From the NCBI GenBank assembly GCA_937872895.1, contig CALMUP010000019.1, positions 124,001 through 188,000 of the forward strand: a stretch of 64,000 nucleotides of DNA, read 5' to 3'. The stretch is from an uncultured Verrucomicrobiota bacterium. Lineage in GTDB: Bacteria; Verrucomicrobiota; Kiritimatiellia; CAIVKH01. Positions 24,206-38,511 of this stretch are shown here, piece after piece; within the stretch, counting starts at the first letter, position 1, and the number at the start of each line of letters is the position of its first letter. The notes below the pieces were generated by a model. The model was not told the origin of the DNA, made no database searches, and worked only from the letters and a program-made list of their open reading frames with translations. Position numbers and translations under genes: made by a program.

Positions 24206-24217
24206 ACAAGTCCTTTC

Positions 24218-24254: not shown

Positions 24255-24268
24255 TTCCCCGCTTTTAA

Positions 24269-24697: not shown

Positions 24698-24718
24698 GTG
24701 GTTAGTCTTTCTTCTTTT

Positions 24719-24930: not shown

Positions 24931-25203
24931 TTACGATGCAAGCCCAATTGAGCCGGCCTCCATTATCATGAAGCTGAAAAGCGTGAACCCGTCAAGGATT
25001 GTGACGGTCGTCGGCTTATACCTCCTCAAGACCGTTTCCTCCGGCTGACTATTTGGATTGCGTCCGGTATCAAGGTCTCGCCATATCGAGTGAAATATCC
25101 GAGCCGATTGTTCACGTCGGTCCTCTGGAATTGGCGCATTGATATTCTTCGCGCAAGAGGTCGCGAGAATTGCCATCACGAGTATGGACCCGATTGCATT
25201 CAT
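24931..25203 (-). CDS. Small predicted lipoprotein, unknown
   Basis: A 90-aa protein that I do not recognise. It begins MNAIGSILVMAILATSCAKN, a short signal peptide with an LATS-C lipobox, so the mature protein should be lipid-anchored. The remainder is polar with no motif. The ATG lies 10 nt after the R' box of an attC site, the usual place for a cassette gene. Nothing else is seen in the cassette; the 141 bp between its stop and the next attC site is empty. Confidence 0.55.
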   Translation of the reverse strand: MNAIGSILVMAILATSCAKNINAPIPEDRREQSARIFHSIWRDLDTGRNPNSQPEETVLRRYKPTTVTILDGFTLFSFMIMEAGSIGLAS

Positions 25204-25213
25204 CTATCGTGTG

Positions 25214-25274
25214 ACCCAACGCCAAGCCGCAGAGCCGCCCGCTTCGGGCGTGCTTCTGGCGGCGCTTGTTCGGC
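25214..25274 (-). repeat. attC site between the 70-aa ORF and lipoprotein cassettes
   Basis: Minus strand: R'' GCCGAAC (25274-25268) followed by AAGCG, an inner fold of GCCGC/GCGGC and GCCCG/CGGGC arms, then GCGTTGGGT whose R' is 25220-25214; 61 bp. R'' is the perfect complement of the 70-aa cassette's opening box GTTCGGC at 25678-25672. This is the most consensus-like site of the array. Confidence 0.8.
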
Positions 25275-25408
25275 TTTTCACCTTTTCCTACTCCGTTTCA
25301 ACCAGTAGACACCATGACCACCTTGGGCCTGCATCGTCTGTCTTGGTAACTACTGCATCGTTCGTCAATTCAGACGTCGTCATGACTTCAACACCTTTAG
25401 ACCCCTTC

Positions 25409-25437
25409 AAGAGGGCCGCCGTATCGGCGGACCTCTT
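25409..25437. other. Hairpin after the 70-aa ORF
   Basis: AAGAGG-N-CCGCCG pairs with CGGCGG-N-CCTCTT across 25409-25437, 12 nt downstream of the 70-aa ORF stop on the minus strand. No T-run follows. It may end or protect the cassette transcript. Confidence 0.45.
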
Positions 25438-25448
25438 GTCGTAATTTA

Positions 25449-25661
25449 TCAAAGGGTTCGACTTTTCAAATAACTCTCGCGGATAGATTTTGACGGCGAG
25501 ACAACATCACCAGTCATAACTAGAGCAACCGCACCAGGCTTAACTAGAGCAACCGCCTGCCGACCCAAGTAATCCACACCGACACGTAGCCTGCCTGACG
25601 GCGATCCGCCAAGTTCATAGGGCCCAGCCAATTTGAATAGAGCATCGTCGATTGTGCTCAT
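25449..25661 (-). CDS. Unknown 70-aa cassette protein
   Basis: I do not recognise this protein. Its start at 25661 lies 10 nt after an R' box and is preceded by AGGAAG. It contains a duplicated QAVALVKPG / GAVALVMTG segment coming from a 24-bp tandem DNA repeat. No signal peptide or membrane segment is seen. The supporting evidence is position within a cassette and the ribosome site, so function is open. Confidence 0.5.
   Translation of the reverse strand: MSTIDDALFKLAGPYELGGSPSGRLRVGVDYLGRQAVALVKPGAVALVMTGDVVSPSKSIRESYLKSRTL
25511..25558. repeat. Two tandem 24-bp units inside the 70-aa ORF
   Basis: Two 24-bp units (25511-25534 and 25535-25558) differ at only a few positions and keep the reading frame, adding eight residues per unit. 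This looks like a recent in-frame duplication. Confidence 0.8.
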
Positions 25662-25671
25662 CGGTCTTCCT

Positions 25672-25690
25672 GCCGAACAAGTTGTTAGCT
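25672..25690 (-). repeat. Collapsed attC site (19 bp) between the AbrB/VapC and 70-aa cassettes
   Basis: Minus strand: R'' AGCTAAC (25690-25684), five bases, R' GTTCGGC (25678-25672). R'' perfectly complements GTTAGCT at 26435-26429, which opens the AbrB/VapC cassette. The usual L boxes and central region are missing, so the site has probably lost its middle. Confidence 0.55.
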
Positions 25691-25706
25691 TTTTAAAGAA
25701 TTGTCC

Positions 25707-25746
25707 TTGCGATTGCACAGCGCATCGTATACTCTTACCAGTAAGA
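25707..25746 (+). promoter_or_regulatory. Promoter and operator of the AbrB/VapC pair
   Basis: TTGCGA (25707-25712) and TATACT (25728-25733) are spaced by a short 15 nt. The palindrome TCTTAC-CA-GTAAGA (25733-25746) touches the -10 box and is a likely operator for the AbrB-like antitoxin. The pair is thus transcribed against the array direction from its own promoter. Confidence 0.5.
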
Positions 25747-25763
25747 ATACACAGGAGCGCACC

Positions 25764-26027
25764 ATGATTGCAGTTGCCACAACCAAAATGTCGTCGAAGG
25801 GGCAAGTCGTCATTCCGGAAGACCTTCGGAATCGCTTGAATCTGACAACCGGCTCTCAGTTTGTCGTCGTTGGCGAGGGTGATGTCGTGATTCTTAAAAC
25901 CTTGACCACACCATCGATGCAACAATTTGACGGGCTTATAAAGAAAGCCAGGTTGCAGGCCAAGACTGCGGGAATGAAAAAAGCCGATATCGCTAGGGCG
26001 ATCAAATTGGCCCGAGGCCAACGGTGA
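25764..26027 (+). CDS. AbrB/MazE-type antitoxin
   Basis: Swapped-hairpin DNA-binding antitoxin, 87 aa. TTKMSSKGQVVIPEDLRNRL near the start, read in two parts, is the SpoVT-AbrB signature, and the basic C-terminal half likely binds the toxin. ATG 25764 follows AGGAG at 7 nt. It overlaps the PIN-toxin gene by 4 nt (GTGA). It is the only gene pair in the array transcribed on the plus strand. Confidence 0.87.
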   Translation: MIAVATTKMSSKGQVVIPEDLRNRLNLTTGSQFVVVGEGDVVILKTLTTPSMQQFDGLIKKARLQAKTAGMKKADIARAIKLARGQR

Positions 26028-26434
26028 GGGTCATTTTAGACACAAACGTATTTATCTCCGGTGTGTTTTTCTCTGGTCCACCATCAAAGATACTTGAGGC
26101 TTGGAAAAACAGGGCGATAAAACTCGTGATTTCGCCATCGATCTTTGAGGAATACAGAAGGGTAGCAGGTGAACTTTCCAAACAATTCCCTTCTGTTGAA
26201 ATTTCCTCCATCCTTGAACTAGTTGCGATCAACGCCGACATGGTACCGGACACAACCTTACCGACTCCTGTTTGCACAGATTCTGACGATGACAAGTTTC
26301 TTGCTTGTGCAGTTAACGCAAAAGCCAGAATTGTTTGCAGTGGCGACAAGGCCCTGTTGAATACTTCCGGGTACAGGAATATCCAAGTACTTACTCCGAC
26401 TGTTTTCTGGAAGAATCACATGAAAGAAAGCTAA
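26024..26434 (+). CDS. PIN-domain toxin (VapC-like, COG1569 type)
   Basis: Predicted ribonuclease toxin, 136 aa. LDTNVFISGVFFSG is the first acidic site, a Glu in FEEYRRV the second, and DSDDDKFLACA and SGDKALL hold the remaining Asp residues. It starts with GTG overlapping the antitoxin stop. Its last codons run directly into the next attC site (its stop codon TAA is part of AGCTAAC). Confidence 0.87.
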   Translation: MRVILDTNVFISGVFFSGPPSKILEAWKNRAIKLVISPSIFEEYRRVAGELSKQFPSVEISSILELVAINADMVPDTTLPTPVCTDSDDDKFLACAVNAKARIVCSGDKALLNTSGYRNIQVLTPTVFWKNHMKES

Positions 26435-26482
26435 CATGTGGCTCGTGGGGACACTTCGTGCCCCACAGCCTTTTCGTTGGAT
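26429..26482 (-). repeat. attC site between the retron and AbrB/VapC cassettes
   Basis: Minus strand: R'' ATCCAAC (26482-26476), GGCT/AGCC L boxes, a nearly perfect GTGGGGCAC/GTGTCCCCAC central hairpin, and R' GTTAGCT (26435-26429); 54 bp. R'' matches the complement of the retron cassette's opening box GTTGGCA in 5 of 7 positions. Confidence 0.72.
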
Positions 26483-26498
26483 CGTTTTCTTGTGATCC

Positions 26499-26707
26499 TG
26501 CGATGTTCTACTCGTGCGGTCACAACCTCCTGAAAGACGGGGCGAAGCGTAGCGGGGTTTTCGCGGGGCGTAAAGCGGGAAGCCCAGGCAAGATAGCTTG
26601 CGAGAGGCGGAGGTGGTCGCGCATCGCGTGGTTGCTCATCATGATTCGGAGCATGGGTGCAACACCCCCGTGGAGGTACCGGCAAAACCCGCTCATTCCG
26701 TGGCGAG
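26499..26707. repeat. 209-bp direct repeat, left copy
   Basis: Matches 31306-31515 in the same orientation with about 20 mismatches and no evident gap (hand count). It sits between the reverse transcriptase gene and the attC site. No convincing gene crosses it: frames in both copies lack starts and family motifs. The rest of the gap 26708-26952 shows no feature that I can name. Confidence 0.85.
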
Positions 26708-26952
26708 ACCTGGCTCGAACGATCGGACCGGTGCGCGCGGTGTCGTCCGCAAACAGACGCCCGTATCCATTCGAGGCTAGCCGGACGTTTCTTGGGTTCA
26801 GCCTGGTGATGCCCATACCGGACCTCCCCAACCCGTATCTTTTAAATAGTGAGGACTTACCCGTTGGTGCCCTGATGCCTTGGAGCCTGCTGACCCATTG
26901 GAGTTTATTGTACAATGTCTAGACGTGACCACTCTCCTTTAGGCGTCGTTAA

Positions 26953-27960
26953 TTAATTATGGGCAGATTCTGCGGTTCCAGATCCTTCGGCTCCAGCAAC
27001 AAGGCGAAAATGATACTGTGAAAGTTGTTTATATGAATTATAGTCAACTGATTTACAGTACGAGAACCATCCTGAAATAGATCGGGTGGATGGGTACTCT
27101 ACACAAGGCGAGCCACGCACAATAATTTTATGTAATATTGCCCTCATTTTTCGCTTAGTTTTACGGCCTATCCCAAATTTAGGTTCAGTGCAGTTTTTAA
27201 CGAGGCCCGTGACGCGACATTGTGCCCGCGGACCCATAAATCTTGTTTTACTGTCATTAATCCGGAATTCTTCGTCTTCGATAATATCACGGACGATCGG
27301 CATTACTCGGACAAGCGCATTTCGATTATTCGAGGAAAACGTAAGATCATCTGCGTATCGTGTATATGTGATATTTCTACGCGACAACAAGCCTTGAAGT
27401 CTGCGATCAAGTTTTGAAGCTACGAGATTTGATATGGAAGGAGAAGTAACAGCTCCTTGCGGTAAACCTCCATTACATGTGCACAACTCTGTTAAGAATG
27501 ATGCAACATCTTGAGAGTATCCTAAAGTTTTAAAAACTCTTCGAACTCTATAGTGTGAAATGCTTGGAAAGAAGTCCTCTAAATCGATGCAAATGAAATA
27601 ACGATTTAGAGAATGCGGCTCAACATTATGAATCAGTCCCTTTTTTATAGAGAAAGCGGTTGCAGAGTCTGATGGTGCAAGATTATTGAGAATACCGTGT
27701 AATATCCATCGCTGTATTGCTTTTAATTCTCTTGATGGATGATAAATAACTCTCACTCCGCCAGACTTCTTCGGTATTGAAAACCGCTTATAGAAACTAC
27801 GCGATTTTGTAGCAAGTGTTATTAGTCTTGCTGGATCCAAATGCATGATATCTGCAAGCTCTGGTAACGAATCGAAGATTGGTAGCCCAAACAGACGAAG
27901 TCTTTCTCGATCCGATATCGGCTCCTCGGCAAACTCCTTGAGTGTCTCCCGATATTTCAT
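26953..27960 (-). CDS. Retron reverse transcriptase
   Basis: Makes the msDNA of the retron from the adjacent RNA. The 335-aa protein has RT1-RT7 motifs only, without maturase or endonuclease parts. Visible are IPKKSGGVRVIYHP (about 62-75), catalytic D126 in CIDLEDFFPSI, LPQGAVTSPSISN (166-178) and the active site YADD (202-205). Two retron hallmarks are seen: NVEPH (112-116) in place of NAxxH, and VTG (250-252) in region Y. The ATG lies directly after the a2 arm of the msr-msd RNA. The gene is AT-rich compared with the core genome. Confidence 0.95.
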   Translation of the reverse strand: MKYRETLKEFAEEPISDRERLRLFGLPIFDSLPELADIMHLDPARLITLATKSRSFYKRFSIPKKSGGVRVIYHPSRELKAIQRWILHGILNNLAPSDSATAFSIKKGLIHNVEPHSLNRYFICIDLEDFFPSISHYRVRRVFKTLGYSQDVASFLTELCTCNGGLPQGAVTSPSISNLVASKLDRRLQGLLSRRNITYTRYADDLTFSSNNRNALVRVMPIVRDIIEDEEFRINDSKTRFMGPRAQCRVTGLVKNCTEPKFGIGRKTKRKMRAILHKIIVRGSPCVEYPSTRSISGWFSYCKSVDYNSYKQLSQYHFRLVAGAEGSGTAESAHN

Positions 27961-27965
27961 AATAA

Positions 27966-28163
27966 AAAGAGTGTTGCGGGAGTAGTTTCAATTGGCTCAA
28001 TTGTAGCGTACGGTGCCGGGCACCGTACGTTACGATGCTTTTCGAAGAAAAGCATCGTAATACTCATGATGTCAGCTTTAGTTCGGGGTGGCGAAACACC
28101 ACCTCTGCACGCCTTTCGACGTACAAGACCACAAGTGAATACTAGCTCCACGCAACACTCTTT
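27966..28163 (-). ncRNA. Retron msr-msd RNA
   Basis: The a1 arm (28163-28141) and a2 arm (27986-27966) share a 13-bp perfect complement, AAAGAGTGTTGCG with its reverse complement, extended by GGAG/CTCC. After a1 the RNA shows a TGTACG/CGTGCA stem, then a GGTGG-TGTTTCG-CCACC hairpin; I recall a hairpin with the same loop style in the Eco1 msr. Two strong tandem hairpins follow in the presumed msd: TTACGATGCTTTTC with its complement (28062-28032), and a perfect CGTACGGTGC arm (28031-28009). The branch G is probably in the AGC or TAG near 28142-28148. a1 overlaps the effector's last codons and stop. Confidence 0.88.
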
Positions 28164-29032
28164 CGTCTATAAATACAATTCATTGCCTTGATACGCAAAC
28201 TCCAAATTAATTGACGCGTTTCAATTCTTCGCTTTTCTGTGGGAATAGCACTCACCATCTGCTCAACTGATCGCGGCGGGACATAATACTTTCCAGCTTT
28301 AGTGAAAATGAGCCGTTCGTTGACGAGAATATCGAGCACACTATCCGCTACGAGGGCAGCCTTGCATTTATCAGATGGCGAAAGCACTTCAGCAATTTCT
28401 ATCGCTGCCTTTCTGGTTAGTGGCTCAAGAACAGTTGCGAGAATAAAGAAAAAGTCTTTTGCGTTTAATGGATTTAACAGAGATGGTTCAATAGGGTTTC
28501 TTGCTGCAATAGTTCTAGAAGCATCCGCTACAATTTTTGATAGATCATCTACTGTCGAAATGCTGATTGGTTGATACAATATAAGACTTTTTGTTTGAGT
28601 GCGTAGATGTCTTATGGGGCCTGTGTTAATAAAACTTTTTACAAACCTATATTTGGGGTCTATTATGACGACGAGCTTGTCGCATAGGCGAGGATGGTTT
28701 GAAAATGCGCCCAATTCAGTGAACGTACCTGGACTTTGCAATGGAATGATGACAGCAGAGACACTTTCAGCAAGCAAGTTTTCTAGCTCCAATAAGTTTC
28801 GCCTTTTGTGGCCGAGAATTAATTCTGCGAACATCGTTTCGGGGTAGTGCACAACATAAGTATATTTAGATTTTTTGCCCGCTAGTCGGGCACCCAACGT
28901 TGCTCGCAATTCAGCATCCTGTTTTGAAGCTCCACCGCACAGAAAGAGAGAGATCTCCATGCCGCGTATGCCTGAAGCAAGATAGTGGCTATGAAGCGCA
29001 GTTGCTATAGACATTATGGCTTTACTAATCAT
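28142..29032 (-). CDS. Retron effector: nucleoside 2-deoxyribosyltransferase-like plus winged-helix domain (type II-A, Eco1-like)
   Basis: Predicted toxic effector restrained by the RT-msDNA complex. The N-terminal domain shows ISLFLCGG (residues 27-34), HYPETMFAELI, LLELENLLAESV, and SPGTFTELGAFSN with E106 as likely catalytic Glu, followed by SFINTGPIRHLR. This order of motifs matches my recollection of the Ec86/Eco1 effector. The C-terminal ~130 residues look like a winged-helix DNA-binding domain. I start at ATG 29032 (296 aa), 12 nt after the cassette boundary; the frame to 29083 would translate the attC site. The last codons form the a1 arm. Confidence 0.93.
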   Translation of the reverse strand: MISKAIMSIATALHSHYLASGIRGMEISLFLCGGASKQDAELRATLGARLAGKKSKYTYVVHYPETMFAELILGHKRRNLLELENLLAESVSAVIIPLQSPGTFTELGAFSNHPRLCDKLVVIIDPKYRFVKSFINTGPIRHLRTQTKSLILYQPISISTVDDLSKIVADASRTIAARNPIEPSLLNPLNAKDFFFILATVLEPLTRKAAIEIAEVLSPSDKCKAALVADSVLDILVNERLIFTKAGKYYVPPRSVEQMVSAIPTEKRRIETRQLIWSLRIKAMNCIYRRKSVAWS

Positions 29033-29043
29033 TGTTTTATCGA

Positions 29044-29100
29044 TGCCAACGCTGAAGATCGGCAAGATTGTGAGCCATTTCAACCGGCGTCAGGTTGGGT
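29044..29100 (-). repeat. attC site between the AlbA-like and retron cassettes
   Basis: Minus strand: R'' ACCCAAC (29100-29094), CTGA/TCAG arms, then CGTTGGCA with R' at 29050-29044; 57 bp, the length of a classical short attC. R'' perfectly complements GTTGGGT at 30550-30544, the box that opens the AlbA-like cassette. R' deviates from GTTRRRY at its last two bases. Confidence 0.72.
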
Positions 29101-29104
29101 ACTC

Positions 29105-30526
29105 TCATTTCTGCCCAATGTCAGCCTGCCTCCGCCAGTCCGTGAAGCGCGGACCTCTCTGGTAAGTGGTGCCGCCAGTCCGCGTACCCGGCACACGTTC
29201 AATCAACTGCCTATCCGAGAGCCTCCTGAACAATTCTTTCACGATATAATCACCCTGAATGTGACACAGTTCGCGAGCTTCCTTGTTGCGAATGGTGTCG
29301 TGTGTTTCAAGGTGCTCAAGTATAACGACCTCAGGACTTGCAAGCGCTTCGTGTCGAATTGTCACGAGGACAGCAGCATCAAGATTCTGCACCGTTGGCT
29401 CCTTCAGTCCCATCTTGTGCATTGCCGCAAATGCCGTATTGAGGCCTTCGCCAACATCCTTGTTGGGCGGATTAGGGAACTTGTTCACGAGTCGAACGAT
29501 GGTCCCGTTCCGCGCAAATCGTTCCTCCAGGATGTTCTCCGGCGTAATGTGAGCAGGCAGGCGTCCCGGACTCTGGACTTCAACCCTATTGTCAAAAATG
29601 CGGATGTGAATATCGTCGGCGATGCTGTAATCGCGGTGAAGCACAGCATTCGTGATGATTTCGTGGAGTGTTTCAGGGGGATACATTACCGCTTCGACTC
29701 CGTCTGCGCCAAGCCGTCCGGTTTCTTCGATTGTTCGCGTCGTGAGGGACACGGCCCCGGCAATCTGCGCGTACATGTGTCCCTCGACGGTTGCGGGGTC
29801 GAACGCAAGTGTTTCGCGGGACCCAGCTTTGTCTCGTGTGCGGTAGCGGTAGACTTTGATGCCGCATCTCTTGGGCAGAAGCGCTTGCGGTTCCTCGGCA
29901 AATAGTAGAATTCCAGCTACTGTTGGGCGTCCGTCAAGGATAAGCAGTTGCTTCTCCAACCAGGGTCCGGGTTCTGCCGTAGGAATCACGGCGAGCATGA
30001 ATTCCAGCACCGGGACGGAATTGGCCACGACATCAACTGGAGCGGCTACTGGTTCTGTCTCGAACGACGCTAGTCCTTTCACATACTCAAGTTGCTTCAT
30101 GGTCTCTCGTGACGTCACAGGCAAGTTCTGGGCACCGCGCCTGACGTAAGGTGTTCCGTCGGATGACTTCCGAATGTCCCGCGTCTTTCGTACTTCGCAC
30201 TTGAGAAGAAGCCCCGGCTTCGTATCGGAGGAAAGGAATGTATATTGGAAATCTCGGCTAAGTGGAAATAGCGCCTCGAATATCTGTATGTGGCCATTAG
30301 CTACCTCTTGATCTCGGAAGCCTCGCCAGGTCCGTGTCTTGGTCGCCGTGTCCTCGTCAACTCCGATGAACAGTTCTCCCCCGTCGGCATTCGCGAAAGC
30401 GGCGACTGTCGCCGTCAGTCGGGCTGGCCTCACATCTACGCCCTTCAACTCGTAGAAGTGGCCTTCCTGATAGTTCAGGATGCGGTCTGCCTGTGAATCT
30501 GACACTTTCACCACATCAATTGTCAT
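29105..30526 (-). CDS. Schlafen AlbA_2 domain / HATPase_c_4-type protein
   Basis: A 473-aa protein of the RecG-like/transcriptional regulator group. The N-terminal AlbA_2 domain shows GHFYELKGVDVRPARLTATVAAFANADGGELFIGVDED, quoted in part, (residues about 20-65). The middle holds an ATPase-like region with HEIITNAVLHRDYS and VEVQSPGRLPAHIT, and the C-terminus is a winged-helix-like DNA-binding part. ATG 30526 follows AGGAGG. It is a single-gene cassette. Such proteins occur in regulatory and in defence loci; which applies here is unknown. Confidence 0.82.
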   Translation of the reverse strand: MTIDVVKVSDSQADRILNYQEGHFYELKGVDVRPARLTATVAAFANADGGELFIGVDEDTATKTRTWRGFRDQEVANGHIQIFEALFPLSRDFQYTFLSSDTKPGLLLKCEVRKTRDIRKSSDGTPYVRRGAQNLPVTSRETMKQLEYVKGLASFETEPVAAPVDVVANSVPVLEFMLAVIPTAEPGPWLEKQLLILDGRPTVAGILLFAEEPQALLPKRCGIKVYRYRTRDKAGSRETLAFDPATVEGHMYAQIAGAVSLTTRTIEETGRLGADGVEAVMYPPETLHEIITNAVLHRDYSIADDIHIRIFDNRVEVQSPGRLPAHITPENILEERFARNGTIVRLVNKFPNPPNKDVGEGLNTAFAAMHKMGLKEPTVQNLDAAVLVTIRHEALASPEVVILEHLETHDTIRNKEARELCHIQGDYIVKELFRRLSDRQLIERVPGTRTGGTTYQRGPRFTDWRRQADIGQK

Positions 30527-30543
30527 TCAGTTGCCTCCTATGC

Positions 30544-30620
30544 ACCCAACGACAAAATTCGGCGCACGGAATGGCGCGCTCGGCTCGCTATTCCTTATCG
30601 ACTGCATCCTCTTGTTGGGC
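30544..30620 (-). repeat. attC site between the Cas2-like/2TM and AlbA-like cassettes
   Basis: Minus strand: R'' GCCCAAC followed by AAG (30620-30614), R' GTTGGGT (30550-30544); 77 bp. R'' perfectly complements GTTGGGC at 31285-31279 that opens the Cas2-like cassette. It overlaps the end of the two-TM gene. Confidence 0.77.
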
Positions 30621-30980
30621 ATCCAAGTCCTTTGTATCTTCCTTTGGCACTCGTTTCTTAATGCGGTCAATTATAATGGACGTGGTCTCCTTTGACTTCT
30701 TCCAGATGGCGAGCAAGACGAGACCACCCACGCCGCCGATCACCGCAACGATTACGAACACGCAGAACGTGCGTGTCGACTTGATCTCGGTCGAGAAAAG
30801 GGCCACGAAGAAGGACACCGCGATGGAAAGAAGGAAGATGGCGAAGTTGAGATAAAGATTGCCAGGCGTGCCTCGCTCCAGGTCCTGAAGCTCTGACTCT
30901 GTGACATCGTACACAGTCAAGGAGTCAACCCGTCCGCGACGGACGGTCACCGATTCCGTTGCGCTGGATTGTGAAGTCAT
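30588..30980 (-). CDS. Two-TM membrane protein partner of the Cas2-like protein
   Basis: A 130-aa protein I cannot assign. A polar N-terminus with VTESELQDLERG leads to two hydrophobic segments, about residues 44-63 and 72-92, then a basic and finally acidic cytoplasmic tail. The gene begins 1 nt after the Cas2-like stop and its own AAGGAG lies inside the end of that gene, so the two are co-translated. Small two-TM partners of soluble sensor or nuclease folds are common in toxin and defence modules; this is inference. Confidence 0.72.
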   Translation of the reverse strand: MTSQSSATESVTVRRGRVDSLTVYDVTESELQDLERGTPGNLYLNFAIFLLSIAVSFFVALFSTEIKSTRTFCVFVIVAVIGGVGGLVLLAIWKKSKETTSIIIDRIKKRVPKEDTKDLDAQQEDAVDKE

Positions 30981-30981
30981 C

Positions 30982-31248
30982 TTAGAGATTCTCCTTTAGC
31001 CACTGATCTCTGCAGATGACGTTGCGCCACGCGCCAACATTAGCCGACTTGACCACAATCAGGCGGCTTCCCTTCGGAAGTATTCCGCTGATGTGATCCC
31101 GCACGGCTTTATGGTCGCTCTCAGTCACGATCGCCCATGTTGATTCAGTGATGTGCGCCCATGTGCCATACGACTTGATAGCTTTGTAGAGGGGCTCGTA
31201 GTCCCCTCCCTCGGCCATGTCGTACGAAATGATGTAGCAACTCCTCAT
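30982..31248 (-). CDS. Cas2/SinR-superfamily small protein
   Basis: An 88-aa ferredoxin-fold protein resembling the SinR-type relatives of Cas2: CYIISYDMAEGGDYEPLYKA at the start, GTWAHITESTWAIVT in the middle, and a terminal WLKENL. The conserved Asp after the first strand (ISYD), used for metal in Cas2, is present. No CRISPR array or other cas gene is near, so an adaptation role is unlikely. It is the first gene of its cassette, with AGGAG upstream. Confidence 0.8.
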   Translation of the reverse strand: MRSCYIISYDMAEGGDYEPLYKAIKSYGTWAHITESTWAIVTESDHKAVRDHISGILPKGSRLIVVKSANVGAWRNVICRDQWLKENL

Positions 31249-31278
31249 GCGTTTGCTCCTATGCTTCGGTATTCATCA

Positions 31279-31401
31279 GCCCAACGAAGTATTGGCTCGC
31301 TTTCTTGCGATGTTCTACTCGTGCGATCACAACCTCCTGAAAGACAGGGTGTAGCGTAGCGGAGTTTTCGCGGGGCGTAAAGCGGGAAGCCCGGGTTGGG
31401 T
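31279..31401 (-). repeat. Putative attC site opening the Cas2-like cassette
   Basis: R' GTTGGGC (31285-31279 on the minus strand) is secure through its complementarity with 30614-30620. The proposed R'' ACCCAAC near 31401-31395, inside the 209-bp repeat, would give a long 123-bp site with GGCT/AGCC arms; this left half is uncertain. Confidence 0.5.
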
Positions 31402-31515
31402 TTCTTGCGAGTGGCGGAGATGGTCGGGCATCGCGTGGTTGCTCATCATGATTCGGAGCATGGGTGCAACACCCCCGTGGAGACACCGGCAAAACCAGCT
31501 CGTTCCGTGGTGAGG
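31306..31515. repeat. 209-bp direct repeat, right copy
   Basis: Partner of 26499-26707. It lies between the outermost recognised R' box and the left att site of the tRNA-Thr element. No gene is seen between 31249 and 31732. Confidence 0.85.
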
Positions 31516-31593
31516 ACTGACCTCTGGGCGTTCGCGGTTCCGGCTTCTGAATTCAGGTTCAATCCGCGGTGGACGGCGGGCCGAGGGTGAAAA

Positions 31594-31641
31594 TGGAGCC
31601 AGCAATCGGACTTGAACCGATGACCGCCTGATTACAAATCA
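31594..31641. other. Left attachment site (displaced tRNA-Thr 3' fragment)
   Basis: 48 bp identical to 38436-38483. It contains the CCA end, T arm and part of the anticodon arm only, so it is not a functional tRNA gene. Confidence 0.9.
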
Positions 31642-31677
31642 GATAACCCGCATTGCTATCATTGGCGATTATTGTTG

Positions 31678-31715
31678 ACGTATCGCATATGTATCGTTAC
31701 AAACGGCACTAAATC
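31678..31715. repeat. Putative integrase arm-type site, left
   Basis: 38 bp matching 38308-38345 at 31 positions. Each contains two GTATCG blocks and a TAAATC end. One copy lies near each end of the element, as expected for arm sites. Confidence 0.6.
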
Positions 31716-31732
31716 AACCCGTATGGTGCCGA

Positions 31733-32938
31733 ATGAAAACAGGGAAATCGAAGACCGAGAAGCGCGGCCGCAAACATGCATGGCCGAAAATCGGACCGCG
31801 AGGCAAGGCCTGGCGCGTGGACTGTGGCACGGTGTTCGGCCGTCGCCTCTTCAAGCAGTTCCCGACGCTCCCCGAGGCCGAGGCGTTCGCCGCGCAAATG
31901 CGGACCGCCCGCGAGGAACAGAAGCGCATCCGGCGCATTGAGCACGGCAACCGGGCCGTGAGCCTGTTCAAGCTGACCGACACGCAACGCGCCGATGTGT
32001 TGAAGGCCTACGACCTTCTCGGGGGCTCTGGACGGCTCCTAGAGGCCGTGGAGTTCTTTTTGAAGCACAACCCGCATGCGGCGGGGGGCGTCCCCCTTCG
32101 TGCCGTCCTCGATGACTACGTGGCGTCCAAGGACCGCGCCAATCGGCGCGAGCGGACCTTGAAGGACATCGAGCACAAGGTAGGCCGGTTCGTCGCCACC
32201 GGTCCGAACCGCCCGGTTCACAGCGTGACGACCGACGAAATCGACGCATGGCTCACCCGGCAGGGATACCGGGGGGCATCGTGGAACGCGTACCGCCGCG
32301 CCTTTGTTGGCCTGTTCAACTTCGCCATGACCCGCGGGCAGGTAGCCAGCAACCCGGCCAACCGGCTCCCCATCGTGAAGCTTGATGCCCCGGTCCCGGA
32401 GATCCACACGCCCGCCCAGGTCCGGGTGATCCTTCAAGCCGCCGCGACGCTTCACCCCGAGTTGGTGCCGTACTTCGCCATCGGGTATTTCACCGGCCTC
32501 CGGCCGGCCCGCGAGCTTGGCTTGCTCGACTGGCGCGATGTGGACTTGCGGGAACGGCTGATTCTGGTTTCGGCCCACTCATCGAAGACCCGCGAACAAC
32601 GGTTCGTGAAAATCGCGGACAACCTTCTCGAATGGCTGACCCCGTACCATGCCGGGGAAGGCCGCATTCCTTCCAGTCGCCGCCACTTCCGGGACATCCT
32701 CAAGGCGGCAAAGGTCGAATGGCCCCGCGACGTCATGCGGCACACCTTCGCCAGCTACCACCTTGCCCACCACGAGGACGCCGCCAAGACCGCCCACGAA
32801 ATGGGACACGCGGACGGCGGCAAGATGCTGTTCACCCACTACCGCAACTTGGTGAAACCGAGCGATGCCGGGGCGTTCTGGAATATCAGCCCCGAGGCCG
32901 CGCCGGTGATCCGCATGCCCCGAGCGGTGTCGGCATGA
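31733..32938 (+). CDS. Tyrosine recombinase/integrase
   Basis: Integrates and excises the element at the tRNA-Thr 3' end. The 401-aa protein has an N-terminal arm-binding part, a SAM-like core-binding domain (about 118-210) and a catalytic domain. Catalytic residues are visible: R257 in TGLRPAR, K285, R336 in RDVMRHTFA, H359 in HEMGH and Y370 in HYRN. The box-II His is replaced by Arg (R332), a variation seen in other integrases. It reads inward from the left att site. Confidence 0.93.
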   Translation: MKTGKSKTEKRGRKHAWPKIGPRGKAWRVDCGTVFGRRLFKQFPTLPEAEAFAAQMRTAREEQKRIRRIEHGNRAVSLFKLTDTQRADVLKAYDLLGGSGRLLEAVEFFLKHNPHAAGGVPLRAVLDDYVASKDRANRRERTLKDIEHKVGRFVATGPNRPVHSVTTDEIDAWLTRQGYRGASWNAYRRAFVGLFNFAMTRGQVASNPANRLPIVKLDAPVPEIHTPAQVRVILQAAATLHPELVPYFAIGYFTGLRPARELGLLDWRDVDLRERLILVSAHSSKTREQRFVKIADNLLEWLTPYHAGEGRIPSSRRHFRDILKAAKVEWPRDVMRHTFASYHLAHHEDAAKTAHEMGHADGGKMLFTHYRNLVKPSDAGAFWNISPEAAPVIRMPRAVSA

Positions 32939-33036
32939 GATTTTCCCGCCGTGTGGCGAGAATAGAAGCGGGGACCGGCTCCGATGCAACCGGGACCGGT
33001 CCCCTTGACGGCACAACCCACAGGAGAAACGCCGCC

Positions 33037-33414
33037 ATGAAGACGAAAGTAGAAGGCACAGGCCAAACCCGCAAGGATCGAACCACAAACGCCCAGGGCA
33101 CCACCCCGCCCGCCGTGCTCGACCTCGACGCCCTCGACCTCACCACGCGCCGTGTGGTCAACTACGTGGTGCACCGGATGCCCGACGCGGTGAAGCGGCA
33201 ATTCATCATAGCCGCCAACGTGGAGGCCATCCTAGACCTTGCTCCCGGAGGCGAGACCAAACCATCCGGGTACGCCTGCATGAACTGGGAAGGCCGCGCC
33301 GATCACAACATCATCGACATCCTTTCGGGGTACGATTGCAACCGGTTCGAGCAACCCGCGCCATGGCAGGAGCGGGCAATCCGCACGATTCTGGAAGCGG
33401 GACCGATCACGTAG
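33037..33414 (+). CDS. Unknown protein of the integrated element
   Basis: A 125-aa protein that I do not recognise. It starts at ATG 33037 after AGGAG. A disordered first 35 residues precede an alpha-rich part with RRVVNYVVHRMPDAVKRQF. It follows the integrase gene on the same strand with a 98-nt gap. No membrane segment is seen. Confidence 0.6.
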   Translation: MKTKVEGTGQTRKDRTTNAQGTTPPAVLDLDALDLTTRRVVNYVVHRMPDAVKRQFIIAANVEAILDLAPGGETKPSGYACMNWEGRADHNIIDILSGYDCNRFEQPAPWQERAIRTILEAGPIT

Positions 33415-33842
33415 GCCAGATCACCGCCGCCGCCCCGCGCCGATCCGGCCCGCATACCATCGGGACCGGACCCCGGCGCGAGAGGCGACGACATCCCCGC
33501 GCCGATTCGTCATCGGCAAGCCGCGCACCGAGCCGACGCCACCCCCGCCTGTGATTCCCCGAGGGGCGCACGGCCACACACGGCGCACAAGCGAGAAGGC
33601 CGACACCTACCCACCCCGGCCGGTACGGCATGGAAGCGGCAGCCTCGACCCCACCATCACCAGCGAGGGGCGACCCCGGCCCGCACCAGAGGGCGAACCA
33701 CCTACCCGCCCACCCCCACCCCCGGCACCCCGCCGCGCAAGATTCCCTATCGATAAGTCTCACCTACAACCTCGACCGCTTTTTGCGGTGTATAACTCTC
33801 ATGTGTTGACCGGCAAGGGGCACGATATCAGGATCGATGTAG
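33415..33842. other. Gene-free stretch in the element
   Basis: GC-rich, proline-codon-rich sequence. Open frames cross it but lack a ribosome site and any fold-like pattern. I see no reliable gene, promoter or repeat. Confidence 0.5.
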
Positions 33843-34073
33843 ATGAAGCCGCCAAGTACACCGAGCAACCAGCCGGAGCCGGAACCGGAACCGCAGTTAA
33901 ACGCGGAAGCCCGGAAACTGCTGGCGATACAGAACGCCATTTTGAGGATGAGATCCCATTTAGTCGAAGAAGGGCTCGACCTGAGGACGGCGCACAACGA
34001 GGCGGTGTCGATAGTGGTCCGCAGGATCAGCAAGGCGAGTTCGCCCTCGAATCCCAAACCCCCGACCAAGTAG
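33843..34073 (+). CDS. Small unknown protein, paralogue of the 34206-34385 product
   Basis: A 76-aa protein with a Pro/Glu-rich N-terminus and a helical part, ILRMRSHLVEEGLDLRTAHN then AVSIVVRRI. The same pattern (R-HxxxEG---R-A---AV-I-VRR) recurs in the product at 34206-34385, which supports both as real genes. Function unknown. No clear ribosome site is seen. Confidence 0.5.
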   Translation: MKPPSTPSNQPEPEPEPQLNAEARKLLAIQNAILRMRSHLVEEGLDLRTAHNEAVSIVVRRISKASSPSNPKPPTK

Positions 34074-34205
34074 ACGCCGAGCGCGAGGCCATGCTCGACA
34101 AGCAGAAGGCCAACCCGAAGGCGAAACCGGTCGCGACAAGAGGCAATGACTTATTGTGCTATCCGGTTAGGATGAATAACCGCCGCGCTTGCCGCATTCG
34201 CCCGT

Positions 34206-34385
34206 GTGAACTTTGCCGATCAAGCCCGCGCCGATGGGATTGCCGAAGTAGCGCGCATCAGAAAGCACTTTATCGCGGAAGGATTCCACCCCCGCGATGC
34301 ATACAGGAAAGCGGTTCGTATCTTCGTGCGGCGGCCGGAGGCCCAAGACCAGCGTAAGAAGCAGCCCCCGCCCGACCATCCGTGA
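34206..34385 (+). CDS. Small unknown protein, paralogue of the 33843-34073 product
   Basis: A 59-aa frame starting at GTG 34206. IRKHFIAEGFHPRDAYRKAV then RIFVRRP aligns with the C-terminal half of the neighbour at 33843-34073. The start is uncertain because an ATA-opened extension precedes it and no good ribosome site is seen. A basic helical DNA- or protein-binding role is possible but not shown. Confidence 0.45.
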   Translation: MNFADQARADGIAEVARIRKHFIAEGFHPRDAYRKAVRIFVRRPEAQDQRKKQPPPDHP

Positions 34386-34400
34386 ATGTGCGCGAGAGGC

Positions 34401-34607
34401 TCACCTACGACCGATCAAGAGCAGGATGGGCATACAGGCAAGCCACGATGCAATGCCGCAAAGCGTGATCGATACGAACCACACAATCACTGTGGCAAGT
34501 AGGCCCCTCCCTTCGGAGAAGTGAAGCGCGACCAGCACGCCCGCGACCACTCCGACGACTTGTGAAATCACGTACCCGATCAAGTGAACCGCATCCTCGT
34601 TTTTCAT
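34401..34607 (-). CDS. Small two-TM membrane protein
   Basis: A 68-aa protein beginning MKNEDAVHLIGYV, with two hydrophobic helices (about 8-29 and 36-62) and a short basic end. ATG 34607 has GGAGG upstream. It is the only minus-strand gene of the element, so it may be transcribed separately, for example as an immunity or lysogeny-stage factor; this is speculation. Confidence 0.5.
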   Translation of the reverse strand: MKNEDAVHLIGYVISQVVGVVAGVLVALHFSEGRGLLATVIVWFVSITLCGIASWLACMPILLLIGRR

Positions 34608-34699
34608 GCTCCCGCCTCCCTGATTGCGTGACCGGTGCGACCACCGCGAACCGATCAACAGACGCACCAAGTATTACACCACCCGGCAAGGTGTGTGCC

Positions 34700-34712
34700 A
34701 CAAGCCGCTTGT
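34700..34712. repeat. 13-bp palindrome ACAAGCCGCTTGT, copy 1
   Basis: Found again at 38381-38393 and, with the central base changed to G, at 38407-38419. This copy lies about 100 nt before the Xre-like gene, with an A-tract next to it, in the presumed control region of the replication operon. A second small hairpin, GCTGCA/TGCAGC, lies at 34777-34791. Confidence 0.65.
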
Positions 34713-34807
34713 TACAAAAAAAAAGTTCATCGGGTACTTCACAATAGGTTTTTGCCGGTAAACAGTTTGCCTAATTGCTGCATGGTGCAGCGCAAAAGGT
34801 GAACGAT

Positions 34808-35017
34808 ATGATAAGTACGACACACTTGGGACAATTGCGTGTCCGGCAATTGATGACCGCGCAGGACATGACGGACCGATTGAATCAGCGAGGCGTGAAG
34901 ACTTCGCGTGTGCGCCTGGTGAAGATCGAGCACAACCGAGCAAAACCCACCCCCGAGGAAAAGAAGGCCATAGCCCGCATCCTCCGCGTGAAGGTCAAGG
35001 AGGCGTTCCCGCAATGA
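34808..35017 (+). CDS. Small Xre-like helix-turn-helix protein
   Basis: A 69-aa protein with LTAQ-type N-terminal helices and NRAKPTPEEKKAIARILRV, typical of the last helices of Xre/Cro DNA-binding domains. The ATG is preceded by AAAGGTG. It overlaps the Xis/MerR-like gene by 4 nt. It is likely the switch regulator of the element, possibly acting on the 13-bp palindromes; that target is inferred. Confidence 0.7.
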   Translation: MISTTHLGQLRVRQLMTAQDMTDRLNQRGVKTSRVRLVKIEHNRAKPTPEEKKAIARILRVKVKEAFPQ

Positions 35018-35211
35018 ACCTACCCACCCGCCTGACCGCCGAACAAGCCGAGCAGTATATCGGCACCACCGCCGAGGGATTGAAACGCCTCCGGCAACGC
35101 CGGGCGATCCGGTTCTATCGCCACGGCCACCGGTCCGTTTCCTACGACCGGGAATCCATCGACCAGTATTTGAAATCCATCGCCGTTGAGCCGATGCCGC
35201 GGGGAGACTGA
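35014..35211 (+). CDS. Excisionase/MerR-like winged-helix protein
   Basis: A 65-aa HTH_17-type protein: LTAEQAEQYIGTTAEGLKRL, then RRAIRFYRHG and YDRESIDQYL. This is the pattern of AlpA/Xis-like directionality factors and small DNA-binding regulators. It starts within the Xre-like gene through ATGA overlap. A role in excision is inferred from the family and the element context. Confidence 0.72.
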   Translation: MNLPTRLTAEQAEQYIGTTAEGLKRLRQRRAIRFYRHGHRSVSYDRESIDQYLKSIAVEPMPRGD

Positions 35212-35216
35212 CTTGA

Positions 35217-35678
35217 ATGAGCACCGACAAAGGAAACGCCCCGCAACCGGGCAGGCATACGGGGCGCAATCAACACGACGCACAACCTACCCCCACCGGC
35301 ACACATCAACAAGGCTATTTGATCCCGGTTCCCTTGGTCCCCGGTGAATCCAAGGACTTCGCTTTCCGATCCGGCACATTCAGGATTGAAGGCGACGCCG
35401 ATACCGTCATCAAGCAAATGATCCGGTGCAACGTGTGGGAATCATTCGCGCCTTGCGGCCTCCGGCCCAGGATGGAGAGCGTTGCCCATGGTCAAATCGA
35501 TGGCAGGTTCTACCTGTTCATCTGGAAGGCGGACGCGCTACGGGGAACACTTCAGAGCGTGTCCGGGCCGGATTCCCCCGCAGGTGTCGCCGTCATCCGT
35601 AAAGCATTCGAGAAGCATATCCGCGACGCCGCCACGCAGGGCGCAACCATCGTATGCGGGAAAGGTGAATCGTCATGA
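35217..35678 (+). CDS. Unknown protein preceding the primase-helicase
   Basis: A 153-aa protein that I do not recognise. The first 40 residues are polar and probably disordered; the rest is a mixed alpha/beta region with YLFIWKADALRG. It overlaps the primase-helicase gene by 4 nt, so it may be an accessory replication factor. No zinc motif or membrane segment is seen. Confidence 0.62.
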   Translation: MSTDKGNAPQPGRHTGRNQHDAQPTPTGTHQQGYLIPVPLVPGESKDFAFRSGTFRIEGDADTVIKQMIRCNVWESFAPCGLRPRMESVAHGQIDGRFYLFIWKADALRGTLQSVSGPDSPAGVAVIRKAFEKHIRDAATQGATIVCGKGESS

Positions 35679-37978
35679 GCAGCATATCCACGCAGTTTGA
35701 AACGTTGAAACGAAACACGGAAACCATCATGGATCACATTGCGCGTTGCCGCTCTGTGGGCATCGGCCCCGACATCCCGCACGAATTGACGCGCCTCCCT
35801 TGCTGGCTGACATGGAGCTTCGACCTACGAAACGGCAAGTTGACGAAGATCCCTTTCACTCCCGACGGTATGTCTTATGCGTCATCGACCGACCGCGAAA
35901 CGTGGGGCGCATTCGACACCGCGCTCGAATCGTGGAAATCCGACACCGCGCTTGCCGGAATCGGTTTTGCCTTCGACCCGGATCAAGGGATCCTCGGGAT
36001 CGACATCGACAAGTGTGTCGATCCGATCACCGGCCCGAACGATGAGGCCATGCAGATTGTTCGAAGCCTGAACACCTACACGGAATATTCCCAATCGGGG
36101 ACCGGATTGCACTTGCTGTGTCGGGCAAAGATGCCGGAAGGGCGAGGGCGCCGAAAGGGGGCGGTCGAATGCTATTCGCAAGGCCGATACTTCACCATGA
36201 CCGGCCGCCGCCTGGAGGGAACACCGTCGAACATCCGTGATTGTCAGGCCGAGGTTGACGAGCTTCTAGCCCGCTACTTCGAGCCGGGAGGCCCGACAAC
36301 CGTACCCGAGGACCGCACCCCCTCTGTGAACAACCTCCGAACCCTCCCCGATGACGACCTGTTGAACCGCGCACGGAACGCCAGAGGAGGCGACGAGTTC
36401 GCGCGATTGTGGGCTGGCGACTGGAAAGGCCGCTATCCGAGCCAGAGCGAGGCCGATGCCGCCTTGTTGGGCAAACTCCGGTTCTGGACCGGGGGCGATA
36501 AGGCCCGATCCTTCGACCTGTTCAACCAATCGGGATTGACCCGCCCGAAGTGGGGGCGCGACGACTACCGGGAAAGCACATGGCGGGCCATCGACCGCGG
36601 CCCCGTGTACGACCCGGCCAGCCGCAGCAAGCCCGACCCGATAGACGCCGAGCCGGAAGCACGCGCGGACGTGCCCGAGGAACCCGCCCGACCGACGCCA
36701 CCGGCCACCCCGGCGAAACAGGCCGGCGCAAGTACCGAGACCCGGGAAAACCCGCCGACCCCCGAGGCCGCAGCCGCCCGAGAGGAACGGGAGGCGCACA
36801 CCCTGAAGAGCCTCCGGCAAGTTCACCGCGATATGGGCGCAGCACTCGAGCGCGGCGACTTCGCCGACCTTCACGATGTGGCAAGGGGGCTTGCCTCGAT
36901 CCTCCGCACCCGAAGCGCACCCGCCGTTACGCGGGGGAAGTCGTGGACGGAAATTGCCTTCAGCACCGTGAACGAGGGCGAAACCCTCCTCGGCAATCGC
37001 TACCTGTGCAAAGCGGGAGCCATGCTGCTTATCGGCCCGTCCGGCGTCGGGAAATCCTCCGCGTCGTGCCAGCAGGATATGCAATGGGCCCTTGGCCGCG
37101 AGGCGTTCGGCATCCGTCCATCCCGGCCGCTCCGCATCATGACAATCCAGGCAGAGAACGATGATGGCGATCAAATCGAAATGGCCCAGGGCGTCATGAA
37201 GGGGTTGAAGCTGACCTCCGAGGACATGGACCAGATCGACGCGAACACGCACACCCGGACCAGCTTCAATGTGTCCGACAAGTTCCTCGAAGAGCTTGAA
37301 GCCGAGGTTGAGGCATGGAAACCCGACATCGTGCGCGTCGATCCTCTCAATTCCTACTTGGGAACCGACCCCAAGGACGTCAAGGCCGTGAACGAGTTTT
37401 GTCGTCAGGGCGTCAGCCCCCTACTGTTCAACCATGGATGCGCGGCCATCTTCGTCCACCACACCCCGAAGACCAACTTTCGAGAGAGCACCGGGAAATG
37501 GAGCACGGTTGATTGGGCGTATGCCGGGGGTGGAGCGGCCGACCTGACCAATTGGGCGCGAGCCGTCCTTGTCGTGGATCCCGTGAACATCGACGAAGGC
37601 ATTTACCGATTCATCGCGGCCAAGCGAGGCCGTCGCATCGGATGGAAAAACGAGGCCGGGGAATCCGTCACAGAGAGGTTTTTCCGGTACGCCAGAGAGC
37701 CCGGCTTGATCTATTGGGAGGAGGCCGACGCGCCCGAGGAAGCCACCAAGCCACACAAGAAGACCAAGACCGACCTTCTCGACCTGATACCCGAAACGGG
37801 ATCGATCGAGAAAGCCGCCCTCATCAGCAAGGCCCAGGATGCCGGTATCGGGATCAAAAAGGCCGAAGGATGGATCAACCAGCTTGTCGCCGATGGCGTC
37901 GCGCAGACGGTGAATGTACCACGTCCCGGAACCCGGCCAGCGGTTCACTTGTCCAGACGGACAGCCGGGGATTCCTGA
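35675..37978 (+). CDS. Primase-polymerase / RepA-like helicase fusion
   Basis: Replication protein of the element, 767 aa. The N-terminal part is a primase-polymerase-like domain: GFAFDPDQGILGIDIDKC with paired Asp, then SGTGLHLLCR and GRYFTMTGRR, as in archaeo-eukaryotic primases. A Glu/Pro/Ala-rich linker (about 315-375) leads to a RepA/AAA_25-type ATPase with Walker A LIGPSGVGKSS (about 450), VRVDPLNSYLG as Walker B and IFVHHTPK as sensor. The end looks like a winged helix. Such fusions drive replication of satellites and plasmids. Confidence 0.87.
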   Translation: MSSISTQFETLKRNTETIMDHIARCRSVGIGPDIPHELTRLPCWLTWSFDLRNGKLTKIPFTPDGMSYASSTDRETWGAFDTALESWKSDTALAGIGFAFDPDQGILGIDIDKCVDPITGPNDEAMQIVRSLNTYTEYSQSGTGLHLLCRAKMPEGRGRRKGAVECYSQGRYFTMTGRRLEGTPSNIRDCQAEVDELLARYFEPGGPTTVPEDRTPSVNNLRTLPDDDLLNRARNARGGDEFARLWAGDWKGRYPSQSEADAALLGKLRFWTGGDKARSFDLFNQSGLTRPKWGRDDYRESTWRAIDRGPVYDPASRSKPDPIDAEPEARADVPEEPARPTPPATPAKQAGASTETRENPPTPEAAAAREEREAHTLKSLRQVHRDMGAALERGDFADLHDVARGLASILRTRSAPAVTRGKSWTEIAFSTVNEGETLLGNRYLCKAGAMLLIGPSGVGKSSASCQQDMQWALGREAFGIRPSRPLRIMTIQAENDDGDQIEMAQGVMKGLKLTSEDMDQIDANTHTRTSFNVSDKFLEELEAEVEAWKPDIVRVDPLNSYLGTDPKDVKAVNEFCRQGVSPLLFNHGCAAIFVHHTPKTNFRESTGKWSTVDWAYAGGGAADLTNWARAVLVVDPVNIDEGIYRFIAAKRGRRIGWKNEAGESVTERFFRYAREPGLIYWEEADAPEEATKPHKKTKTDLLDLIPETGSIEKAALISKAQDAGIGIKKAEGWINQLVADGVAQTVNVPRPGTRPAVHLSRRTAGDS

Positions 37979-38023
37979 TAGATGCAGATGGGTATCAGCA
38001 TCCCCCATCCAGATCATCGGGAA

Positions 38024-38087
38024 CAGTGAGGGAGATAGATGCACACCCCCCCTACGTATGTACGGGGGGTATGTATCTATCTCACTG
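38024..38087. other. Large imperfect hairpin after the primase-helicase gene
   Basis: CAGTGAG (38024) and ATAGAT in the left arm match the complement of ATCTAT and CTCACTG in the right arm, and a CCCCCC/GGGGGG stem closes an 11-nt loop. The arms span 64 nt with one four-base bulge and two mismatches. It could be a replication origin structure or a terminator; no T-run follows. The remaining gap 37979-38435 holds no gene. Confidence 0.7.
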
Positions 38088-38307
38088 TCGCGATCCAGAT
38101 GCCGACAGGGAGAAAAACCCGAAGGCCAGCCGGTCGAAACATTGACCAGAACGTTACCCCCAGAGCAGTCTGCAGGAGCACACCGGCACGCGCCGTCCCT
38201 GTGCTACCCGGACCGGGGAACGGTCAGGCCGACGCATCGACCCGCATCCGCGCCCATGGTTGCGATTGTTGACCAATGACCCCGAAGCAACCCGATCAGA
38301 CGGCCAA

Positions 38308-38345
38308 ACGTATCGCTTTTGTATCGCCAAAAATGGCCCTAAATC
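38308..38345. repeat. Putative integrase arm-type site, right
   Basis: Right counterpart of 31678-31715, same orientation, 31 of 38 positions identical. Confidence 0.6.
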
Positions 38346-38380
38346 GGCCCTTTTGACGCTTTTTGCCTTTCGGACAAACG

Positions 38381-38419
38381 ACAAGCCGCTTGTTACTTTT
38401 GCGTTCACAAGCGGCTTGT
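38381..38419. repeat. Two 13-bp palindromes next to the right att site
   Basis: ACAAGCCGCTTGT (38381-38393) and ACAAGCGGCTTGT (38407-38419), 26 bp apart start to start. Together they can also form a larger inverted structure. They lie 17 bp from the right att core. Confidence 0.7.
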
Positions 38420-38435
38420 ATTCAACGTTTTATAT

Positions 38436-38483
38436 TGGAGCCAGCAATCGGACTTGAACCGATGACCGCCTGATTACAAATCA
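38436..38483. other. Right attachment site within tRNA-Thr
   Basis: 48 bp identical to 31594-31641. After this block the two sequences differ at once, which marks the core limit. Confidence 0.9.
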
Positions 38484-38511
38484 AGTGCTCTACCAACTGA
38501 GCTATGCTGGC
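38436..38511 (-). tRNA. tRNA-Thr (UGU)
   Basis: 76 nt including an encoded CCA end. The acceptor arm pairs GCCAGCA with TGCTGGC. The D arm AGCTCAGTTGGTAGAGC, the anticodon stem CTTGA/TCAAG with loop TTTGTAA (anticodon TGT) and the T arm with GGTTCAAGTCC are all present. The integrated element uses its 3' 48 nt as attachment site and leaves this copy intact. Confidence 0.96.

Follow-up and report, generated by a model that had tools for sequence, protein, structure and literature searches.

A small integrative element that may work like a phage satellite lies inside a tRNA-Thr gene of an uncultured Verrucomicrobiota bacterium (class Kiritimatiellia, assembly GCA_937872895.1). The window analysed here is a 64,000-nt stretch of contig CALMUP010000019.1 (positions 124,001 to 188,000), and the element measures 6,842 bp core to core between two 48-bp att copies, which refines the 6.9 kb given in a first-pass annotation of the same DNA. 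On balance we favour the interpretation of an intact minimal integrative element working like a small phage satellite, nearest in plan to the phage-inducible chromosomal minimalist islands (PICMI). It probably represents a candidate satellite similar to PICMI and to phage-inducible chromosomal islands (PICI), of a known kind and a new lineage. This interpretation is favoured by the full att ends, the inward-reading integrase gene (int), the xre and xis genes, the element's own primase-helicase and the vacant tRNA in two relatives. Carriage in phage particles is likely, judging from this plan and from capsid-less cousins that bear terminase genes.

Gene content and ends of the element

The gene order is int, orf125, two small open reading frames (ORFs), a small ORF on the opposite strand, xre, xis, orf153 and a gene for a 767-aa PrimPol-helicase. 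Genes and sites are listed by window position, with the strand in brackets where one applies (HTH, helix-turn-helix):

31594-31641 (-): att copy at the integrase end, 48 bp, 3' part of tRNA-Thr
31676-31715 (+): arm-type repeat at the integrase end (GTATCGnnTnTGTATCG...CTAAATC), 31/40 identical to 38306-38345
31733-32938 (+): tyrosine integrase, inward-reading (PF00589 E 1.3e-9; phrog_1 E 6.5e-26)
33037-33414 (+): orf125, coding score 41, no Pfam or PHROG match
33843-34073 (+): orf76, small ORF, weak coding score of 7, by eye similar to orf59
34206-34385 (+): orf59, small ORF, weak coding score of 11
34401-34607 (-): putative small membrane protein of 68 aa, membrane nature judged by eye, no Pfam or PHROG match
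34700-34712: palindrome copy 1, 13 bp (ACAAGCCGCTTGT), proposed operator, upstream of xre/xis
34808-35017 (+): Xre-like HTH regulator (HTH_3 E 0.0014, below the Pfam cut-off)
35014-35211 (+): Xis/AlpA-like HTH_17 protein (HTH_17 E 1.8e-4; phrog_66 excisionase E 0.0029)
35217-35678 (+): orf153, overlapping the primase gene by 4 nt, no Pfam or PHROG match
35675-37978 (+): PrimPol (NrS-1 type) fused to an AAA_25 RecA-like helicase, 767 aa (NrS-1 HBD E 1.9e-12; AAA_25 E 2.9e-16; phrog_1829 E 1.9e-72)
38023-38088: long imperfect hairpin downstream of the helicase gene, candidate replication origin or terminator, 27-nt arms, 85% complementary
38306-38345 (+): arm-type repeat at the tRNA end, 31/40 identical to 31676-31715
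38381-38393: palindrome copy 2, beside the tRNA end
38407-38419: palindrome copy 3, 26 bp from copy 2 and ~17 nt from the att core
38436-38483 (-): att copy inside the intact tRNA-Thr, 48-bp direct repeat
38436-38511 (-): tRNA-Thr (TGT), intact, integration target (Rfam tRNA 71.7 bits)

The att repeat spans tRNA-Thr(TGT) from the anticodon stem to the CCA end. Its two copies, 6,842 bp apart, are 100% identical, as the first-pass annotation had stated, and a 34-nt part of the repeat occurs in the window at these two sites only when up to 3 mismatches are allowed (0 expected from 100 shuffles). In a same-genus genome (G001) the tRNA-Thr gene stands without the element; a homologue of the gene flanking the tRNA in the window lies upstream, and a different gene (lgt, judged by eye) lies within ~50 bp downstream. 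Because the left flank of the window differs from that of G001, this comparison did not yield the exact empty junction. A same-family genome (G004) also has its tRNA-Thr gene without the element, next to polynucleotide phosphorylase and a homologue of that flanking gene, the arrangement seen in the window. The site is in repeated use: in a third genome (G003), two partial tRNA-Thr 3' blocks match that genome's own tRNA at 47/48 and 48/48 positions, and one of them adjoins an xre-xis pair and an integrase 30% identical to that of the window; in G073 an 8.8-kb element occupies the site. As a separate observation, positions 31642-31666 beside the att copy at the integrase end resemble by eye a decayed 5' tRNA half (GCCAATGATAGC...), and some relatives have a complete tRNA there.

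The integrase, the Xre/Xis pair and the primase-polymerase/helicase named in the first-pass annotation are backed by Pfam, PHROG and PDB matches, those for Xre and Xis being weak. The tyrosine-recombinase motifs of the integrase are intact by eye. The xis product scored 22.1 bits against PF12728, under the Pfam cut-off of 27, and its equivalents in three cousins pass; it shares 50% identity across 58 aa with a 65-aa ORF in G003 (contig C54). The xre and xis genes overlap by 4 nt, the ATG start and ribosome site of xre having been picked by eye (the mechanical ORF begins at 34775), and their naming is supported because the same adjacent pair occurs beside related integrases in other genomes. 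No relative of orf125 was found in viral contigs by a single-protein scan, and none of orf153 in viral contigs; the structure model of orf153 was uninformative, with a pLDDT (predicted local distance difference test) of 41. None of the nine scanned ORFs of the element matched capsid, portal, tail or terminase families in Pfam and PHROGs at E values up to 1, in agreement with the earlier statement that virion genes are missing, and the same nine ORFs gave no match to conjugation families in these databases.

The first 320 residues of the PrimPol-helicase match NrS-1-type primase-polymerases as well as PDB 7ola (E 3.7e-30), which we take to be the SaPI5 primase-helicase, and 6a9w (E 4.5e-23), with DID, SxH and E-x-Y-x-x-GRY motifs recognised by eye. 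An AAA_25 RecA-like helicase, its Walker A motif likewise visible by eye, makes up the second half. The two halves differ in their nearest relatives. Among the matches listed from plasmid and phage records, the primase half is nearer to unnamed haloarchaeal plasmid proteins (~37-44%) than to phage proteins (~34-36%); the helicase half has its nearest relatives in phage contigs and in genomes of the class. Coverage of 80% of the protein was not reached by any phage or plasmid record. Of the 345 class genomes, 30 (the own genome among them) have a match to the protein at E<=1e-20, and both halves share one frame only in the own genome and in G074. Single-protein scans of viral and genome contigs returned no relative, whereas alignment scans returned one locus in genome contigs (39% in the helicase, in a metagenome-assembled genome of Verrucomicrobia subdivision 3) and 222 helicase relatives in viral contigs, the best 80 of 222 being listed.

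The 40-bp repeats, 31/40 identical, exceed the best values obtained from 60 shuffles (23) and from 60 other window stretches (24). Lying in the same orientation inside both att cores, they fit, as expected, putative arm sites of the integrase. The palindrome ACAAGC(S)GCTTGT has three sites in the window against 0.05 expected, and these are its only sites in the whole 3.87-Mb genome (a reversed-pattern control gave one); two copies share 16 bp when the following TTAC is counted. Its position before xre/xis and twice at the tRNA end suggests that control of the operon is linked to the att region. As a rule for the family, this link between operator and att was rejected, since the palindrome stands out in only one of the five att-bounded elements described below. 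The hairpin has a folding z of -3.8, with none of 200 shuffles as good, and its core had no match in viral contigs. In G003, contig C136 (L078) carries a mobile region that ends in a tRNA-Thr att block and holds three copies of another palindrome, TTCCAATGATTGGAA-like, at 248, 280 and 5286.

Related elements in the class

Related integrases, at E<=1e-20, are present in 68 of the 345 class genomes, the own genome among them. Twenty integrase contexts were examined, and a search for exact repeats covered 13 tRNA-bearing loci (the window and the G074 locus, L041, included) plus one further locus, L230. A half-tRNA duplication bounds the integrase in 5 of these 14 loci, the other nine being contig ends, degenerate sites or other layouts without such a repeat:

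Window element: 6.84 kb; tRNA-Thr 3' part, 48 bp
G000:C8, same genome (L230 823-7543): 6.68 kb; tRNA-Leu 5' part, 41 bp; int, orf, xis, DnaB/AAA_25 helicase, second, XerC-like integrase
G073:C54: 8.8 kb; tRNA-Thr 3' part, 49 bp; int, xre, xis, DnaB/AAA_25 helicase, TerS, MmeI-type restriction
G071:C7: 9.0 kb; tRNA-Arg 5' part, 41 bp; int, xre, xis, ParB-like, Toprim, PolA-like
G344:C156 (L224 884-12360): 11.4 kb; tRNA-Ser 5' part, 40 bp; int, xre, DUF5906 primase, endonuclease, TerL, ERCC4 nuclease

The first-pass annotation had proposed looking for the same gene set in related genomes; the four similar att-bounded elements have related integrases, different replication genes and no structural genes. 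Two of them carry a terminase subunit (TerS in G073:C54, phrog_309 E 1.1e-8; TerL in G344:C156, phrog_38 E 5.3e-24), and no portal, capsid or tail match was found among the scanned proteins of the four. The xis of G000:C8 also has a weak match to a terminase small subunit (phrog_57 E 5e-4, in its HTH), but the excisionase phrog_66 matches better at E 1.1e-8.

Further loci share parts of the plan. The best relative of the fusion protein is in G074, where the order int, orf, xis, orf, primase-helicase is followed by a PLD/SNF2 helicase; exact 12-, 14- and 15-mers revealed no att repeat there, so that G074 was not counted as att-bounded. Two loci of G003 have ends that were not resolved: C54 combines int (~44% identical) and xis (50%) with a PolA-like protein, a primase-like protein and an AAA_25 helicase, and C244 carries related int and xis in the order int, xre, xis, followed by an IstB-like ATPase and an MmeI-type protein. 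The int end of C244 (L213 10300-12446) abuts a TerL gene that is cut at residue 140 and frameshifted, an arrangement that recalls helper-embedded satellites as described in PMC10111431. A near-identical copy of the element was not found among the 345 class genomes.

We tentatively suggest that these elements form an undescribed minimal-satellite lineage in a poorly studied class. Such a lineage would use a single integrase family to target the tRNA half to one or the other side of the anticodon, would exchange its replication modules (PrimPol-helicase, DnaB-like helicase, D5-type primase and PolA/Toprim) and would carry TerS or TerL and restriction cargo as options. In the present member, a single palindrome-binding regulator, placed at both the operator and the att site, would couple operon expression to excision. 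To our knowledge, minimal satellites are known so far mainly from proteobacteria and Gram-positive bacteria, and a literature search on phage satellites in Verrucomicrobia returned no paper on such elements, judging by titles. If correct, minimal satellites would extend to a mostly uncultured bacterial class and would have a modular build, with four or more replication modules joined to a start of related integrase and xre/xis. The shared palindrome would offer a simple model for how a 7-kb element couples its exit from the chromosome to its own copying.

Known systems and competing explanations

A PICMI consists of six genes in 6.1 kb, namely int, alpA, prim and three unknown genes (PMC10803314). 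PICMI and the element are both ~6-7 kb in size, with an integrase, an AlpA/Xis (PF05930 or PF12728 in PICMI, a putative HTH_17-type protein in the element) and a primase and without capsid remodelling or virion genes, and the defence hotspot after the PICMI primase is matched in some cousins of the element. In contrast, the element uses tRNA-Thr instead of the fis site and an NrS-1 PrimPol-AAA_25 protein instead of a DUF3987/DUF5906 primase, has Xre beside Xis and belongs to another bacterial class; mobilisation by helper-phage particles, a trait of PICMI, is for the element a proposal. Since it has neither the fis site nor the primase type, we do not file it as a PICMI. The six-gene, 6.1-kb PICMI plan is nevertheless closer to it than the 12-15-kb PICI. 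With Gram-negative PICI the 6.8-kb element shares an integrase, a regulator and a replication module in conserved order (int, xre/xis, primase-helicase, similar in the cousins), an inward int, a lack of structural or lytic genes and, in its cousins, TerS or TerL, but no packaging or interference gene was recognised in it (PMC6092414, PMC10111431). Other traits given for these PICI are an att site never used by prophages and phage-dependent induction, interference and packaging. An inward int with an HTH_17 gene before the primase, as in the element, is a satellite plan (PMC10803314, PMC10111431).

Several observations weigh against a satellite nature. No packaging gene or packaging site was recognised in the element, and the palindrome link was not seen in the four cousins, so that it may be peculiar to the present member. 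Related integrases occur on viral contigs (141 relatives; the best 80 of 141 listed are 25-38% identical, and the best-scoring are 33-36% identical on contigs of 5-79 kb). Outside the class, the closest helicases belong to phages that also have terminase and portal genes, for instance a stand-alone helicase 49% identical on a contig with TerS, TerL and portal recognised by eye (L104), and another viral contig (L106, IMGVR_UViG_3300044470_000574) reads, by eye, int, HTH, primase-like, helicase, TerS, TerL, portal, capsid. The host genome (0 matches to PF05065, 2 to PF03237) has a Mu-like prophage, so judged by eye (G000:C35 ~75-102 kb, L188/L189), and a terminase-portal fragment identified by eye apart from its terminase match (G000:C1 ~51-61 kb, L186/L187). 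The helper packaging signals that the first-pass annotation had proposed as a check did not emerge from a comparison covering these two terminase loci: they have no stretch >20 nt in common with the element, only 13-20-nt DNA matches at chance level, and no protein match.

The phage contigs bear on the explanation that the element is a trimmed prophage, i.e., a temperate phage with int-xis-primase-helicase early genes that lost its late genes and kept both att ends by chance. L106 shares the order of integrase, HTH, primase-like protein and AAA_25 helicase and continues into TerS, TerL, portal and capsid, whereas the element stops after the helicase; a deletion in such a phage could yield a similar plan. 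The early module common to temperate phages, also evident in the related integrases of viral contigs, fits satellites, which often share phage genes, but also a trimmed prophage. Nonetheless, we regard this origin as unlikely. The main genes look intact, and the element contains no late-gene fragment. Moreover, the capsid-less plan recurs in five att-bounded elements that differ in genome, site and replication genes, and two of these have sizes close to 6.7-6.8 kb, an outcome that independent decay is unlikely to give. A longer copy with capsid or terminase genes, named in the first-pass annotation as the mark of a degraded prophage, was not found, but cousins carry a terminase without a capsid and viral contigs carry int-HTH-helicase with late genes; of the signs of a prophage remnant, no remains of late genes were found in the element, and no near-identical copy that might include such genes among the 345 class genomes. 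PMC10111431 contrasts the outward-pointing int of prophages with the inward-pointing int of satellites; here the inward int is a weak sign, because the int of the L106 phage reads inward too.

A somewhat stronger contender, although still doubtful, is a cryptic integrative plasmid-like element with its own excision and PrimPol-helicase replication but no special tie to phages, moving by transformation, passive transduction or another route. The element corresponds to the description of cryptic integrated PrimPol elements, class iii, which have an archaeo-eukaryotic primase (AEP) and att repeats made by a tyrosine or serine integrase and lack genes for conjugation or phage structure. It resembles the PrimPol-PV1 elements in its AEP fused to a RecA-type helicase, tRNA att repeats and lack of conjugation or phage genes, differing in that its AEP is of NrS-1 type by hidden Markov model (Kazlauskas et al. 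2018, PMC5862659). Neither a phage packaging nor a conjugation gene was found in it, and the plasmid affinity of its PrimPol half among the matches listed points the same way. However, TerS or TerL, of no use to a plasmid, is found in cousins whose integrases are related, and the nearest helicases outside the class sit in phage contigs. A dead relic no longer able to move is highly improbable: several small ORFs are weakly coding and ~0.4 kb (33415-33842) is without a well-supported gene, but the att copies are perfect, the arm repeats are in place, and int and the primase-helicase gene are open and bear their motifs. The likeness to a phage satellite or integrative plasmid drawn by the first-pass annotation is borne out by the att ends, gene set, vacant tRNA and four similar elements, whereas the helper link, packaging and excision are still inferred.

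Proposed mechanism and the adjoining low-GC region

If the element works as a satellite, its integrase would recombine att sites in the part of tRNA-Thr from the anticodon to the 3' end, a site at which an intact tRNA remains. While the element is quiescent, the xre-xis-orf153-primase-helicase operon may be repressed via the palindrome at 34700 by a regulator, the simplest candidate being Xre. At the palindrome pair beside the tRNA-end att, the same regulator or Xis could shape the excision complex and so couple derepression with excision. Upon derepression, Xis and integrase would excise a 6.84-kb circle, which the PrimPol-helicase would copy, perhaps starting at the hairpin after its gene. 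Transfer would then proceed via helper-phage particles, as suggested by the plan and by the terminase-bearing, capsid-less cousins; helper particles are invoked because no capsid, portal or terminase was recognised in the element.

The compound island proposed by the first-pass annotation holds in so far as the element adjoins a region of low GC content (0.505, compared with 0.615 for the element and 0.67 for the host), but this region lies outside the att repeats, and the window contains no third att copy on its far side. The region (23100-31593) encodes two toxin-antitoxin pairs (Phd/PIN and MazE/PIN_3), a glyoxalase and a Schlafen AlbA_2 protein. It also contains a 217-nt repeat (26496-26712 and 31303-31519, 89%) and a reverse transcriptase (26953-27960) with an unassigned protein as its neighbour (28142-29083), an arrangement that appears retron-like by eye.

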